From positions 132,392,385-132,456,384 of the forward strand of contig NC_079487.1 of the NCBI RefSeq assembly GCF_020520425.1: a stretch of DNA of 64,000 nucleotides. Reading direction: 5' to 3'. Below the pieces are notes generated by a model, which saw only the letters and a list, made by a program, of their open reading frames with translations, had not been told where the DNA came from and made no database searches. This document shows, piece by piece, positions 4,680 through 16,577 of this stretch (position 1 is the first letter of the stretch; each line of letters starts with the position of its first letter). A program made the translations under genes and the position numbers. Origin of the DNA: Spinacia oleracea (taxonomy: Eukaryota > Streptophyta > Magnoliopsida > Caryophyllales > Amaranthaceae).

Positions 4680-5307
4680 ATGATCTTTACACTTTCCGTT
4701 TTAGTATGTTTCATAATGTTATTTACACTTTACTTTATATTTGACATAAAAATTTACTATCTTACCCTTCGTACCCCACAATATTTTATTTTTCTGACAT
4801 TCACCCACTTTTTAAAATATTTCTCTTACTTTATCCATATTTTATTTTACGGATTTTTCATGAAATACCCCGAGTTTTAAGGAAATCACCAAATGTCCTC
4901 AAGTTTCAATAATACATAAAAATACCCCTAAAACAAAACTTAATACTTCAAATACCCTTAATGACATCATCATCCCTTAATCTGGTATTTGAAGTATTAA
5001 GTTTCAATAATACATAAAAATACCCCTAAAACAAAACTTAATACTTCAAATACATAAAAATACCATTAGTAAGTTAATTAGGTGTTAATTAAGTGGATTA
5101 TGTCATTAAAGGTATTTGGAGCATTAAGTTTTGTTTTAGAAGCATTTTTATGTATTATTGAAACTTGAGAACATTTGGTGAATTTCCTTAAAACTCGGGG
5201 GTATTTCATGAAAAATCCGTTTATTTTATTCAACCAACTTTTCTACTTTTGTATTAATATTTGTGCAAATAATAATTGTTAAGATGTTTATGAAACAAAG
5301 GTAGTAG
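4680..5307. mobile_element. Older MITE split by a later MITE
   Basis: The flanks 4680-4849 and 5229-5307 read as one sequence once the element at 4850-5219 and its target duplication are removed. The same sequence occurs uninterrupted at about 20197-20450 (shared: TTCATAATGTT-like start, TTTGACATRAAAATTTACTA, and AATATTTGTGCAAATA near the right end). The ends are degraded CTCCGTTT-type, so it is probably Stowaway-like. Confidence 0.6.
4850..5219. mobile_element. Mutator-like MITE with ~100-bp terminal inverted repeats
   Basis: The terminal inverted repeats begin CGGATTTTTCATGAAATACC on both strands and pair for about 100 bases with few differences. A perfect 9-base target duplication, TTTATTTTA, flanks it (4841-4849 and 5220-5228). 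A 9-base duplication plus long inverted repeats is the Mutator-superfamily signature. It has no coding capacity. The ends match those of the larger element at 12486-14234, so both belong to one family. Confidence 0.88.
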
Positions 5308-8007: not shown

Positions 8008-11897
<3,890 letters not shown>

Positions 11898-12165: not shown

Positions 12166-12485
12166 GTAATTTACAACGCGCGGATGGTGCAGGGGCCTGC
12201 ACGTAGATCTACGTGCACCTGCACCAAAAAAAAAAAAAAAAGTAAAAAAAAAAAAACATAAGAAACTAAACAGAAAGAACATAATAGAGTAAACGAAAAG
12301 AACATTAACCAAAACCTGAAAAGAACATTAATGTTAAAAAACTAAAGAAAATGTACAAAATTGAAAATAACATATTCTATCTCCTGATACATTATAAAAA
12401 GAACAACTATTTTACAAAAAGAACATCATGTGAAAAATGCAACAGAAAAACAAAAAAAAACATATTATCGATAATATTTATAAAA

Positions 12486-14234
12486 CGGTTTTTTCATGAA
12501 ATGCCCCTGAGGTTTGCAAAAACGCACCAAATACCCTCGCGTCTTTTGAATCACATAATATACCCCTATTTTTTCCCAAGTTTGCACCAAATACCCCTAA
12601 ACCGACCTTCCGTTAAGCCTCCGTTAAGTCGTGTTTATAATTCACAGAATACCCCTATTTATAAACTAAGTTGCACCAAATACCCAAAATATTTTTAAAC
12701 CGCATAATTTGATTTCCATAAATCGTTCACCTAATATGGGGATTGAGGATATGCAATTAATAATAGAAAATATTGTCACTCAAATCTTTCACCTAAAATA
12801 TCACACTTTGTTTGACCAGCAATGGAAATAAAAGGGGGGCGTCTACACAATCACCACCCACAAACATTAATCGGAAAACCAAATCATAGTGGTTCATTTC
12901 TATATTAGTTCACCATCACCTCTGGGCTTGAATTCACAGAAAAACAATAACCGACTAGTTTCATATCCCATAGATACAGCAAGGTGGGGCAACAACTTAG
13001 CAGGGAAGTGCTAATAATCAACTGACTTTAGCTCACTCTAACAAAATGAGATCAAAATTACAAGAAAAAGAAAGGAACGTGACTGTCATGATGAATTCAA
13101 GGGTGAAATATAACCAATTTCAACTAGAAAGCACAACCAAAGAGTATATAGAAATCAAAACTGTAGAAATCATCATCATCAAGTTGTTATCTGAAATGGC
13201 TACTACAAATGACCAGCAACTTCATCTGCTTTACGATACCTAGGGCCTTGAACCCAAGCACCATCAATGGGGGGTAATAACTCCAGTCAAGCCATCGTCG
13301 ACAAAATCACAACCCTCTTCCCCTCTAAAACTGCCTTCACCGGCGCCAACTTAAGCTTCACACCAAAGTCCCTAATCCTCTGTGAAGGCTCGATAAAGGT
13401 TCTCCCCACATAATGGGACCTAATCAAACCCTTTTGAAAGGGCACACCAGCTTTCTCAGCATCCCCAAGAGCAGCAACAACCCCAGAATCAGGCACTGCA
13501 ATAACCACATCACATTCAACAGGCGAATCAAACCAAATAAAAAACGCCTAGAAATCAAACGCCAATTTGTAATCAAAAGAACTAATCAACAACAAACCCA
13601 AGAATCACAACCAAACCACCGATCAAAATCCGGCGAAATTTGTCGATCCCTTGCCAGAAGACCCGAAACCCATCCCTAATTCAAACCCAATGAGAAACTT
13701 CCTTCTACTGGGCAATTATAATTATCAAAGGAAAGAGAAGAAGCTTTGTAGAGCTTTACTTGATAAGGAGAGAGAAAATAATTTGGGTTTGGAATCTGGT
13801 CACGAGGATGATGCAAGTGAGGCTGTTGGGTTTGGAATCTGGTCACGAGGATCACCAACATCTTGCCCCCATTTGTAGTAGCCACTATACTTCAAAATCG
13901 TGGGTTAGGCTTGCCGGCGACCAGAGATCGGCCTCCGCCGGCGAAAAAAGAGCGGAGATCGGATGCCGCCGGCGACCAGAGAGCCGGAGGAAGAACATCG
14001 GAGAGGAGAGAGAAAAAGATAGAGAAAATGGTTGAGATTTCTTTGGGAATTTTGTCAAAAAACATGTTTTAAGGGCAAAATAGTAAAACGCGACTAACGG
14101 CAGACTAACGCCGTTAACTCAAAGGTGTATCTCATGAACAGTACGCAAAAATAGGGGTATATTATGTGATTCAAAAGACGCGAGGGTATTTGATGCGTTT
14201 TTGCAAACCTCAGGGGTATTTCATGAAAAAACCG
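12486..14234. mobile_element. Pack-MULE: Mutator-like element with captured gene sequence
   Basis: The inverted repeats start CGGTTTTTTCATGAAATRCC and pair for about 88 bases with only two mismatches seen. A perfect 9-base target duplication, TTTATAAAA, flanks it (12477-12485 and 14235-14243). Subterminal copies of CACCAAATACCC follow the left repeat. The interior is unrelated to the ends and includes a host-gene fragment (13290-13525) and a GC-rich stretch at 13900-14000 that could be from another gene. No transposase is present. The near-identical repeats suggest a fairly recent insertion into the older element around it. Confidence 0.92.
13290..13530 (-). pseudogene. Captured fragment of plastid amidophosphoribosyltransferase
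   Basis: Minus-strand translation gives [20 protein letters not shown], then [40 protein letters not shown] and [14 protein letters not shown]. This is unmistakably the phosphoribosyltransferase domain of glutamine phosphoribosylpyrophosphate amidotransferase (plant ASE/ATase, first committed step of purine synthesis). Similarity stops just before the PRPP-binding loop (expected VVDDSIVRGTT). The frame then ends after a few unrelated residues, so no working enzyme can be made. A second in-frame stretch downstream, GAWVQGPRYRKADEVAGHL (about 13210-13270), looks like the tail of another, unrecognised gene. Confidence 0.9.
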
Positions 14235-16577
14235 TTTATAAAATATTAAAAAACAGTAAAAAAGTAAAAAAGAACACAAAATAATTATAAAAAAAGAACA
14301 ACAACTTTTTTAGAAAACAAAAAGAACAAAATCAAAAGAAAAATAAAATAAAAAACTCAAAAAAATTTATGAAAAAAAGGCAACAAAAAAAAGAACAAGA
14401 GAACAAAACACATGAAAAAGAACAATTTTTTCTTTTTCCTTATCATACAAAAGAACAGAATGAAAGGGACGAAAAGAACAACAAATCTATGTTCTTTTAT
14501 TAGTTGTATTTGTTCTTTTCAAACCACTTAGTGTTCTAATTAAAAAGACAAAATCGACGATATTTTGATGCACTTAAAACTAGATCTATATTTTTATTTA
14601 AATGTATTTTTGTTCTTATCCATCGCATCAGATCTACGTTCTTTTATTGAGTGTTATTTGTTCTATTCAAACGATTTTATGTTCTAATTAAAAAAGACGA
14701 AACGACGATTTTTTGATGCACCTAAAAATAAATCTATAAAAAAAAAGTATTTTTGTTCTTTTACCCCGAATCAGACTATGTTCTTTTTTAAGTGTTATGT
14801 GTTCTTTTCAAACCATTATATGTTCTTTTTTTCACAATCTATGTACGTTGATATAAAAGAACAAACTATGTTGATTTAAAAGAACAAACTATGTTGATGC
14901 CACAGTAAAAGTAAAGTTGTGAAAAGAACATTACAATTTGAAAAGAACATTAGAGGAAAGAACAAGGAAACGTACCTTAAACACTTGATCAACATTTATC
15001 AGGAGCATCAATATCTTTTAATAAATCTTCAAAAACTGATCTCAATCCTCGAAAAATATCACGCTCTCCAGATATTCTCTTGTTTCGAAAACTAGCCAAA
15101 TTGAACTAGTGTTTTTCTTAATTCACTCATTTTTCAAACGAAGGAGAAACATTCAGAAAGAATTTTAGAGAGAGAATAAGGAGAAAACATATTTTTTACT
15201 CTTTCACTCACCATCTCACTCTTTCTCTCTCAAAAAATCTCTCTTATGTTGAGAGAATATAAATCCTCTCCTCTTTCTCTCTCTAAAATGTATTTATAAA
15301 ATGACTAATGATTATGATTCATAAGTACAATTATTATATATATAGTTGCTGGAAAATAGAAAATGAAAAAATAGGAAGTAGAATCAAAGAATAACAAAGA
15401 AGGAGAAAGGAAAAATTCTTAAAGAGTGTATAATGAGAACTATGCACGTGTTTTTATTTTGTTCTTTTAACAGAATATTATAAAAAGAACAAATGAAAAG
15501 ACTAAAATAACAAATAGAGAGACTAAAAGAACAAGTCAAGTACCTTGTCCAACAATAATATATGATTCAGAATCATCATTTTGATCATTCTGTTATCAAT
15601 TATCAAGCACATTATTCATAATATCAGGAAAAAATAATAGGTTTAACATGTATAAAACCAAGAAAAAGAACGCAACCAAAAGAACAAAGGATAAATAAAA
15701 AATAAGAAAGAAAAATAACACAATAAAATAAAAAGAACAAGTTATGAAACGCAAATGAAATTGAAAAAAAAAAAGAAAAAAGAACACAATAGAATGAAAG
15801 AACAAATTATGAAACGCAAATGGTCTATTTTTCTACTATAATGAAACTGTTCTTTTAATACGAGCATAAAGAAACTGTTCTTTTAATACGAGCATATGTT
15901 CTTTTAATACGTAAAACTGTTCTTTTCTGGAAAAAAATCGTAATTACATAATCCAAATCTTCAAAATCAGCGATTTCAACGAAATCAGCGTGTTGTTACA
16001 TAATTTGATTCATTAAAATCATCAAAACCATCAAAACTCGATTATTACAAAAACAAAATCATCAAAATCATCAAACACACGATTATTACAAAATCAAAAT
16101 CATCAAAACCTAGAATTTATTATTTCAAAATTGAAAAATTACCTCCCAAAATCTGATTATCAGCTACAGAATTCAGATTTGAAGAAGAAGAAACGGTTTA
16201 ATTTGATGTTGAAGCAGAAAAATCAACGAATTTTTGGGAATTTTTACTACTTTCTCACTCTAAGAACCATTTTAGAAAACCTAGTTCATACTTTATCTCT
16301 CCTCTTCACAATTTGAGTTCAAAACATAAAATCTAGAAGAATATATATCGCAAGAAGAAAGCAAATCGAATAAAAAACGCGAAATACAGAGCTGAAAAGA
16401 ACATAGCTTTTAATGTTCTTTTGTTCTAGGGTATTGTTCTTTTGCTCAAGGAAAATGTTCTTTTATTCCAGGGATTTAATGAAACACGCGCGTTTTATGT
16501 GTTTTTTATGTCGTTTTGTTTCCGGTGCACCTAGAGCACGGTGCACACGCCTGCACCATCAAATTTGCGGTAATTTA

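Follow-up and report, generated by a model that had tools for sequence, protein, structure and literature searches.

Capture, internal deletion and recent spread of amidophosphoribosyltransferase DNA by a spinach Pack-MULE

In a 64-kb stretch of the spinach (Spinacia oleracea) genome (C1:132392385–132456384, hereafter the window), positions 12486–14234 are a non-autonomous Mutator-like element (MULE), a Pack-MULE with DNA of the purine-synthesis gene amidophosphoribosyltransferase (ATase). We hold with high confidence that the 3′ half of ATase was captured, internally deleted and extended by filler, and that the product spread recently, presumably by means of transposase supplied in trans. A chromosomal ATase gene would have supplied its 3′ half to an ancestor of the group, which took it up between its terminal inverted repeats (TIRs), most likely from DNA and by gap repair or template switching. 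The captured DNA would later have lost internal pieces, in a presumed order, and gained ~247 bp of filler, and a trans-acting, presumably MURA-type transposase would recently have recognized the TIRs and inserted the element at no fewer than 22 places, generating a 9-bp duplication at each. The first-pass annotation had already read this element as a Pack-MULE carrying a piece of ATase; its TIRs, target-site duplication (TSD) and a parent gene on C6 bear this out.

Results

Structure of the element

The genome searched comprised 894,210,420 bases in 242 contigs, six of which measure 115–189 Mb. It encodes spinach ferredoxin I at 100% identity over 97 residues, a sequence whose best matches are PDB 1a70 and Ferredoxin-1 entries. 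Around the element, inverted-repeat arms at 12472–12573 and 14147–14248 (102 nt, 95% complementary) extend into the target duplication, itself nearly palindromic. The TIR proper spans 88 bp with two mismatches, at positions 18 and 42, in agreement with the ~88-bp repeats and two mismatches first proposed, and the perfect 9-bp duplication described earlier is present as TTTATAAAA on both sides. Left subterminal DNA is common with elements of other payload up to element position ~180–250 and is then unplaced until the first captured block. The three captured blocks (Table 1) are collinear with the C6 ATase gene, in the same order and on the same strand, and blocks 2 and 3 overlap by similar bases at their junction. 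Their GC contents are 0.36, 0.44 and 0.49 for blocks 1, 2 and 3, respectively, against 0.35 for the window, and the element contains short open reading frames (ORFs) only. The DNA past the right capture breakpoint includes a ~45-bp motif recurring in other elements. Where the filler ends on the right, the inverted ATase piece forms a template-switch-like junction.

Table 1 Features of the ATase-bearing element and its borders (window positions)
Feature	Position	Strand	Basis
Left TSD copy TTTATAAAA (9 bp)	12477..12485	.	Perfect match to right copy
Left TIR, 88 bp	12486..12573	+	Arm comparison; 42-base core pattern genome-wide
Left subterminal region	12574..12795	+	Comparison with other-payload elements
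Captured block 1, ATase 3′ flank	12796..13170	-	94% to L009 1898-2278
Captured block 2, ATase residues ~542-575 with the stop codon and adjoining DNA beyond it	13168..13319	-	89% to L009 2581-2732
ATase-frame ORF, window copy, 73 codons from GTG	13287..13508	-	Predicted ORF, gene status unsupported
Captured block 3, ATase residues ~355-432, phosphoribosyltransferase domain	13305..13530	-	96% to L009 3054-3279
DNA past right capture breakpoint	13531..13632	.	Common to siblings L022 and L053
Extra ~247-bp filler	13633..13879	.	Missing from siblings L022 and L053
15-nt inverted copy of ATase 3′ end, right edge of filler	13870..13884	+	Inverted-repeat comparison
Right subterminal region	13880..14146	+	Element 1395-1749, whole or parts, 83-89% in the family's short elements
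Right TIR, 88 bp, two mismatches to left	14147..14234	-	Arm comparison
Right TSD copy, 9 bp	14235..14243	.	Identical to left copy

Insertion site

The element lies in another high-copy repeat: window 14244–14900 matches at least 39 other places at 92–96% (best 40 of 477 candidates scored). Four of these places were fetched for comparison. One of them (L078), 94% identical over the joined 600-bp flanks, contains a single TTTATAAAA and lacks the element, a direct empty-site demonstration in a paralogous repeat. The other three are also uninterrupted by the element and vary in length at an AT-rich point. The DNA surrounding the insertion (window ~12186–14900, outside the element) is AAAAGAACA-rich and belongs to the high-copy repeat. 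Two observations could have overturned the first-pass reading: an ATase segment belonging to a continuous host gene, or the segment at this place in relatives lacking the element. A host gene running through was rejected, since intact ATase genes reside on C6 and at C1:95.07 Mb and the element at the window site interrupts a repeat. As to the second, the paralogous repeat has neither element nor segment.

Parent gene and captured DNA

The search for a parent suggested in the first-pass annotation led to C6, where locus L009 holds an uninterrupted 575-aa ATase frame on the minus strand, without introns. Its best PDB match is 6lbp (E 1.2e-281), chloroplastic amidophosphoribosyltransferase 2, an entry that we take to be the Arabidopsis protein. 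A second intact gene, at C1:95072356–95074080, is 97% identical in protein to the C6 gene. Block 1 (~375 bp) corresponds to DNA ~340–720 bp past the C6 stop codon and, among the matches listed, was located only at the C6 gene and in the element group, save for 31 bp at the C1 gene. This specificity points to the C6 ATase gene as the donor or the gene closest to it. The C6 gene also carries a 61-bp direct duplication in its 3′ flank (L009:2235–2376; 93%, spacing 81), which lies at the captured block's edge.

Both coding pieces derive from ATase, and capture of two different genes was rejected on that ground. The phosphoribosyltransferase (PRTase) piece initially recognized is indeed ATase; its length, put at ~65 codons, is 78 codons, as block 3 encodes parent residues 355–432 on the minus strand with 90% protein identity. 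The coding-like tail IDGAWVQGPRYRKADEVAGHL and its stop are likewise present in the window copy, and the tail, previously left unplaced, lies in block 2 and matches the C-terminus of the same ATase. It adjoins the PRTase piece because the intervening gene DNA is missing. In the window copy, a private 1-bp insertion separates IDGAWVQGPRYRKADEVAGHL from the preceding LTGVIT.

A comparison of intron content had been proposed to distinguish capture from DNA and from RNA; as the parent frame is intronless, this comparison is uninformative. The distance of ~340 bp between the stop codon and the captured 3′ flank favors DNA, so that capture most likely took place at the DNA level.

Copy number and age

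DNA searching of the genome returned at least 115 matching pieces (best 40 of 1991 candidates scored, for which reason all copy counts are lower bounds). We defined the group as those loci, at least 22 including that of the window, whose TIRs are paired. Of the 22, 21 are flanked by perfect 9-bp TSDs, every one different: 18 have them at plain ends, L006 and L010 at the outer ends of composites and L021 at its outer ends. The remaining locus, L008, is damaged at its right end and shows no TSD. A protein search found the ATase PRTase piece, at least in part, at all 22 loci; with 21 differing TSDs, the captured DNA thus sits between the TIRs and travels with the element. A group-specific right-end 42-mer has 19 exact sites in the genome, all inside the 22 loci examined.

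The window copy departs from the majority sequence of 21 aligned copies by six substitutions, of which four are private, and by a G insertion of its own within the G run at 13269–13274 (block 2). L021 was left unaligned, and four length or sequence variants (L019, L020, L022 and L023) were excluded from a tight set of 17. Among these variants, L019 is 43 bp shorter, corresponding to the spacing of a 27-bp tandem repeat, and L023 is ~139 bp shorter. The 17 tight copies differ by a mean of 0.52% pairwise and 0.29% from the majority. Plant substitution rates are 0.7–1.3e-8 per site per year, at which this divergence would correspond to roughly 0.2–0.4 million years.

Recent activity had earlier been deduced from the near-identical element ends. 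Recent spread stands, the reasoning does not: the same two TIR mismatches occur in 19 of the 21 aligned copies and are, therefore, inherited and uninformative on age. TIR similarity was rejected as a clock, and it is the copy-to-copy divergence that argues for recency.

Older siblings, deletions and filler

A decayed element, L053 (C3:32.837 Mb), retains a left TIR, has no recognized right TIR and shows the same right subterminal region as the main copies. It keeps the ATase 3′ half (parent residues ~353–575, with one stop and smaller gaps) and is free of the two large internal deletions, which marks it as an older sibling in which that half is undeleted. L053, L022 and the main copies have a common right capture breakpoint together with bases unlike both intact genes, and hence descend from one capture on the right side. 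In L022 the filler is missing and the region matches that of L053 at 90%, indicating that the filler was gained later, in the main copies. At the filler's right edge, the main copies have the 15 nt of reversed ATase 3′ end, and L022 and L053 have other DNA. The search for a donor of the filler gave only a match of 80% over ~155 bp (C3:61056080–61056235); the filler ORFs yielded no identification and Pfam returned nothing for a 69-residue ORF.

Block 1 is specific to C6; in L053 most of it is missing and the left capture edge differs. The divergence of block 1 from the C6 gene (10/373 sites) is also lower than that of block 2 (12/135; p 0.005), so that the blocks may differ in date and need not all stem from one event. 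These observations would suit a second, later capture of block 1 from the C6 gene by an element already holding the ATase 3′ half. However, the divergence contrast weakens to p 0.02 if a clustered change counts once and to p 0.18 in L022, and the absence of block 1 from L053 is explicable by deletion in that lineage. We regard a later capture of block 1 as possible but rather doubtful; the unequal divergence as such may hint at repeated exchange with the gene.

A three-TIR composite

In two group loci (L006:1501–4023 and L010:1093–3614), a full ATase element runs into 775 bp that come from another family member, with a third TIR. The composites measure 2523 and 2522 bp, respectively, are 99.8% identical and have perfect TSDs only at their outer ends, which differ between them (TTATTTAAA in L006, ATATATTAT in L010). 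That the three-TIR composite moved as a unit, by nested insertion and joint transposition, is well supported. The 775 bp are 99.4% identical to the right part of L082, a 1729-bp element with its own perfect TSD, and the join coincides with an internal point of L082. The simplest reading of these sequences is nested insertion, loss of the left part and joint transposition: the ATase element would have inserted into an L082-like element, the left part of this host element would have been lost together with the left target duplication, and the remainder would have transposed via the outer TIR of the ATase element and the right TIR of its host. Nesting of a different kind is seen at L021, where a related ~1.49-kb element lies at element position 279–287 with the 9-bp overlap that a duplication would give.

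The composites resemble the solo-extra-TIR MULEs of Ferguson and Jiang 2012 (PMC3310237) in having three TIRs and TSDs at the outer ends only. They differ in that their parts are traceable and that two copies with different TSDs exist; in tomato, that study gives another copy for only one of 12 distinct solo-TIR elements. There, the origin of multi-TIR elements is left open, with nested insertion and loss of the internal duplication among the options. The spinach composite offers one concrete route to such elements.

The wider TIR family and a second ATase capture

Searching the whole genome for the 42-base TIR core with up to three mismatches gave 508 sites in forward and 506 in reverse orientation, and the reversed control pattern had 0 in either, which excludes chance matching. 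Among 13 TIR pairs with other payloads, examined with ends allowed to shift by up to two bases, 12 had perfect TSDs, the exception being L062. Two further loci, L058 (TSD agreeing at eight of nine bases) and L057 (one recognized end only), carry the ATase 5′ end. Their common flanking DNA indicates one further capture, separate from that of the 3′ half. From these comparisons it appears well supported that a single TIR family captured ATase at least twice, as the 3′ half (the group and L053) and as the 5′ end (L057/L058). L055 contains an ATase fragment without recognizable TIRs.

Other genes are represented as well. In L060:441–3020, the same TIRs surround a fragment of AP5B1 (AP-5 complex subunit beta-1), of which one frame matches the Pfam AP5B1 C-terminal domain above cut-off (E 6.9e-11). 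L063, L064, L065, L071 and L072 have ends like those of L060 and differing middles; one L072 frame has weak leucine-rich repeats in Pfam, below cut-off. At a threshold of 0.01, seven of the nine proteins searched had no Pfam match, including the 73-residue ATase ORF of the window and the L058 ATase frame. The window itself contains a second, MITE-like relative of 370 bp (4850–5219), whose termini are related (CGGATTTTTCATGAAATACCCC and the inverse of it) and whose 9-bp duplication, TTTATTTTA, is perfect. A tandem repeat with 61-bp spacing lies at window 10802–11106.

Class membership and transposase source

The 9-bp TSDs at 21 of 22 loci and the empty site fit the 9–11 bp expected for Mutator-like elements. 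According to PMC3310237, MULE TIRs are typically 100–500 bp and those of DNA transposons usually under 50 bp; at 88 bp, the present TIRs fall below the first range and above the second. As in other Pack-MULEs, the captured fragment comes from a non-transposon gene with its parent elsewhere, here intact on C6 with a paralog on C1. No transposase was found inside the element when four MULE-domain frames (431–767 aa) were compared with the window and the other loci examined at E 1e-3. A genome-wide MULE-domain search (best 150 of 1960 candidates scored) provided four regions of 7 kb each, representing four reading-frame classes and reaching ~3.5 kb from the domain; within them, matches to the element ends were no better than E 0.02, and none of the four held an autonomous element bearing these TIRs.

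Possible function

Could the captured DNA act? A small-RNA effect is possible in principle, because exact sharing of 21–24-mers with the gene is plentiful: 105 24-mers and 114 21-mers of the majority copy recur in the C6 coding frame, as do 81 and 93, respectively, of the window copy, and at least 22 loci are involved. Small RNAs and methylation are also reported at rice MULEs in PMC4858842. TIR-driven sense or antisense transcripts might then yield small RNAs tuning ATase. On the other hand, block 3 shows no clear constraint, its minor-allele density of 0.0021 comparing with 0.0029 and 0.0027 at the left and right ends (17 copies, small counts); the same small-count data give 0.0016 for block 1 and 0.0062, the highest value, for block 2. 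We consider such action on the parent very unlikely and any effect on ATase putative. That ATase was repeatedly captured for a reason, with small RNAs from many ATase-bearing copies tuning purine synthesis, strikes us as highly improbable.

A new protein made from the ATase pieces would draw on open frames of 86 residues over block 3 and 48 over block 2 in the majority sequence, and of 81 residues over block 3 in the window copy (27 in the protein-search listing for the same copy). Yet blocks 2 and 3 are mutually out of frame in the majority sequence, and an in-frame mini-ATase was rejected on this basis. The PRTase remnant extends to only ~78 codons, the window copy has its private insertion in block 2 and the 73-residue ORF lacks a Pfam match at E 0.01. 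A protein product is thus exceedingly improbable, and the element probably has no protein function.

Discussion

The element is a soundly supported Pack-MULE of the ordinary type, whose history can be read with unusual clarity. Pack-MULEs were reportedly the subject of Jiang et al. 2004. Like those of rice, maize, Arabidopsis and tomato, as portrayed in PMC3310237 and PMC4858842, it is non-autonomous, has TIRs (of 88 bp here) and a 9-bp duplication, and combines captured gene fragments and many copies with a parent gene that is intact elsewhere. Pack-MULEs of rice and maize are reported to prefer GC-rich DNA; the spinach element holds a 3′ half and 3′ flank of modest GC. For animal Pack-TIRs, PMC8277862 proposes capture by template switching with microhomology, a likeness to the present case, and describes mostly single-copy elements, in contrast to the many copies of this plant MULE. 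A title search of the open-licence literature, with subscription papers outside its scope, found no such Pack-MULE or Mutator-like ATase family in spinach.

The element leaves knowledge of ATase and purine synthesis unchanged. Its interest lies in the group as an ordered set, comprising an intact parent, an older sibling whose capture is longer, derivatives with deletions, a variant with filler and a composite of known parts, which lets capture, internal deletion and multi-TIR formation be placed in sequence.
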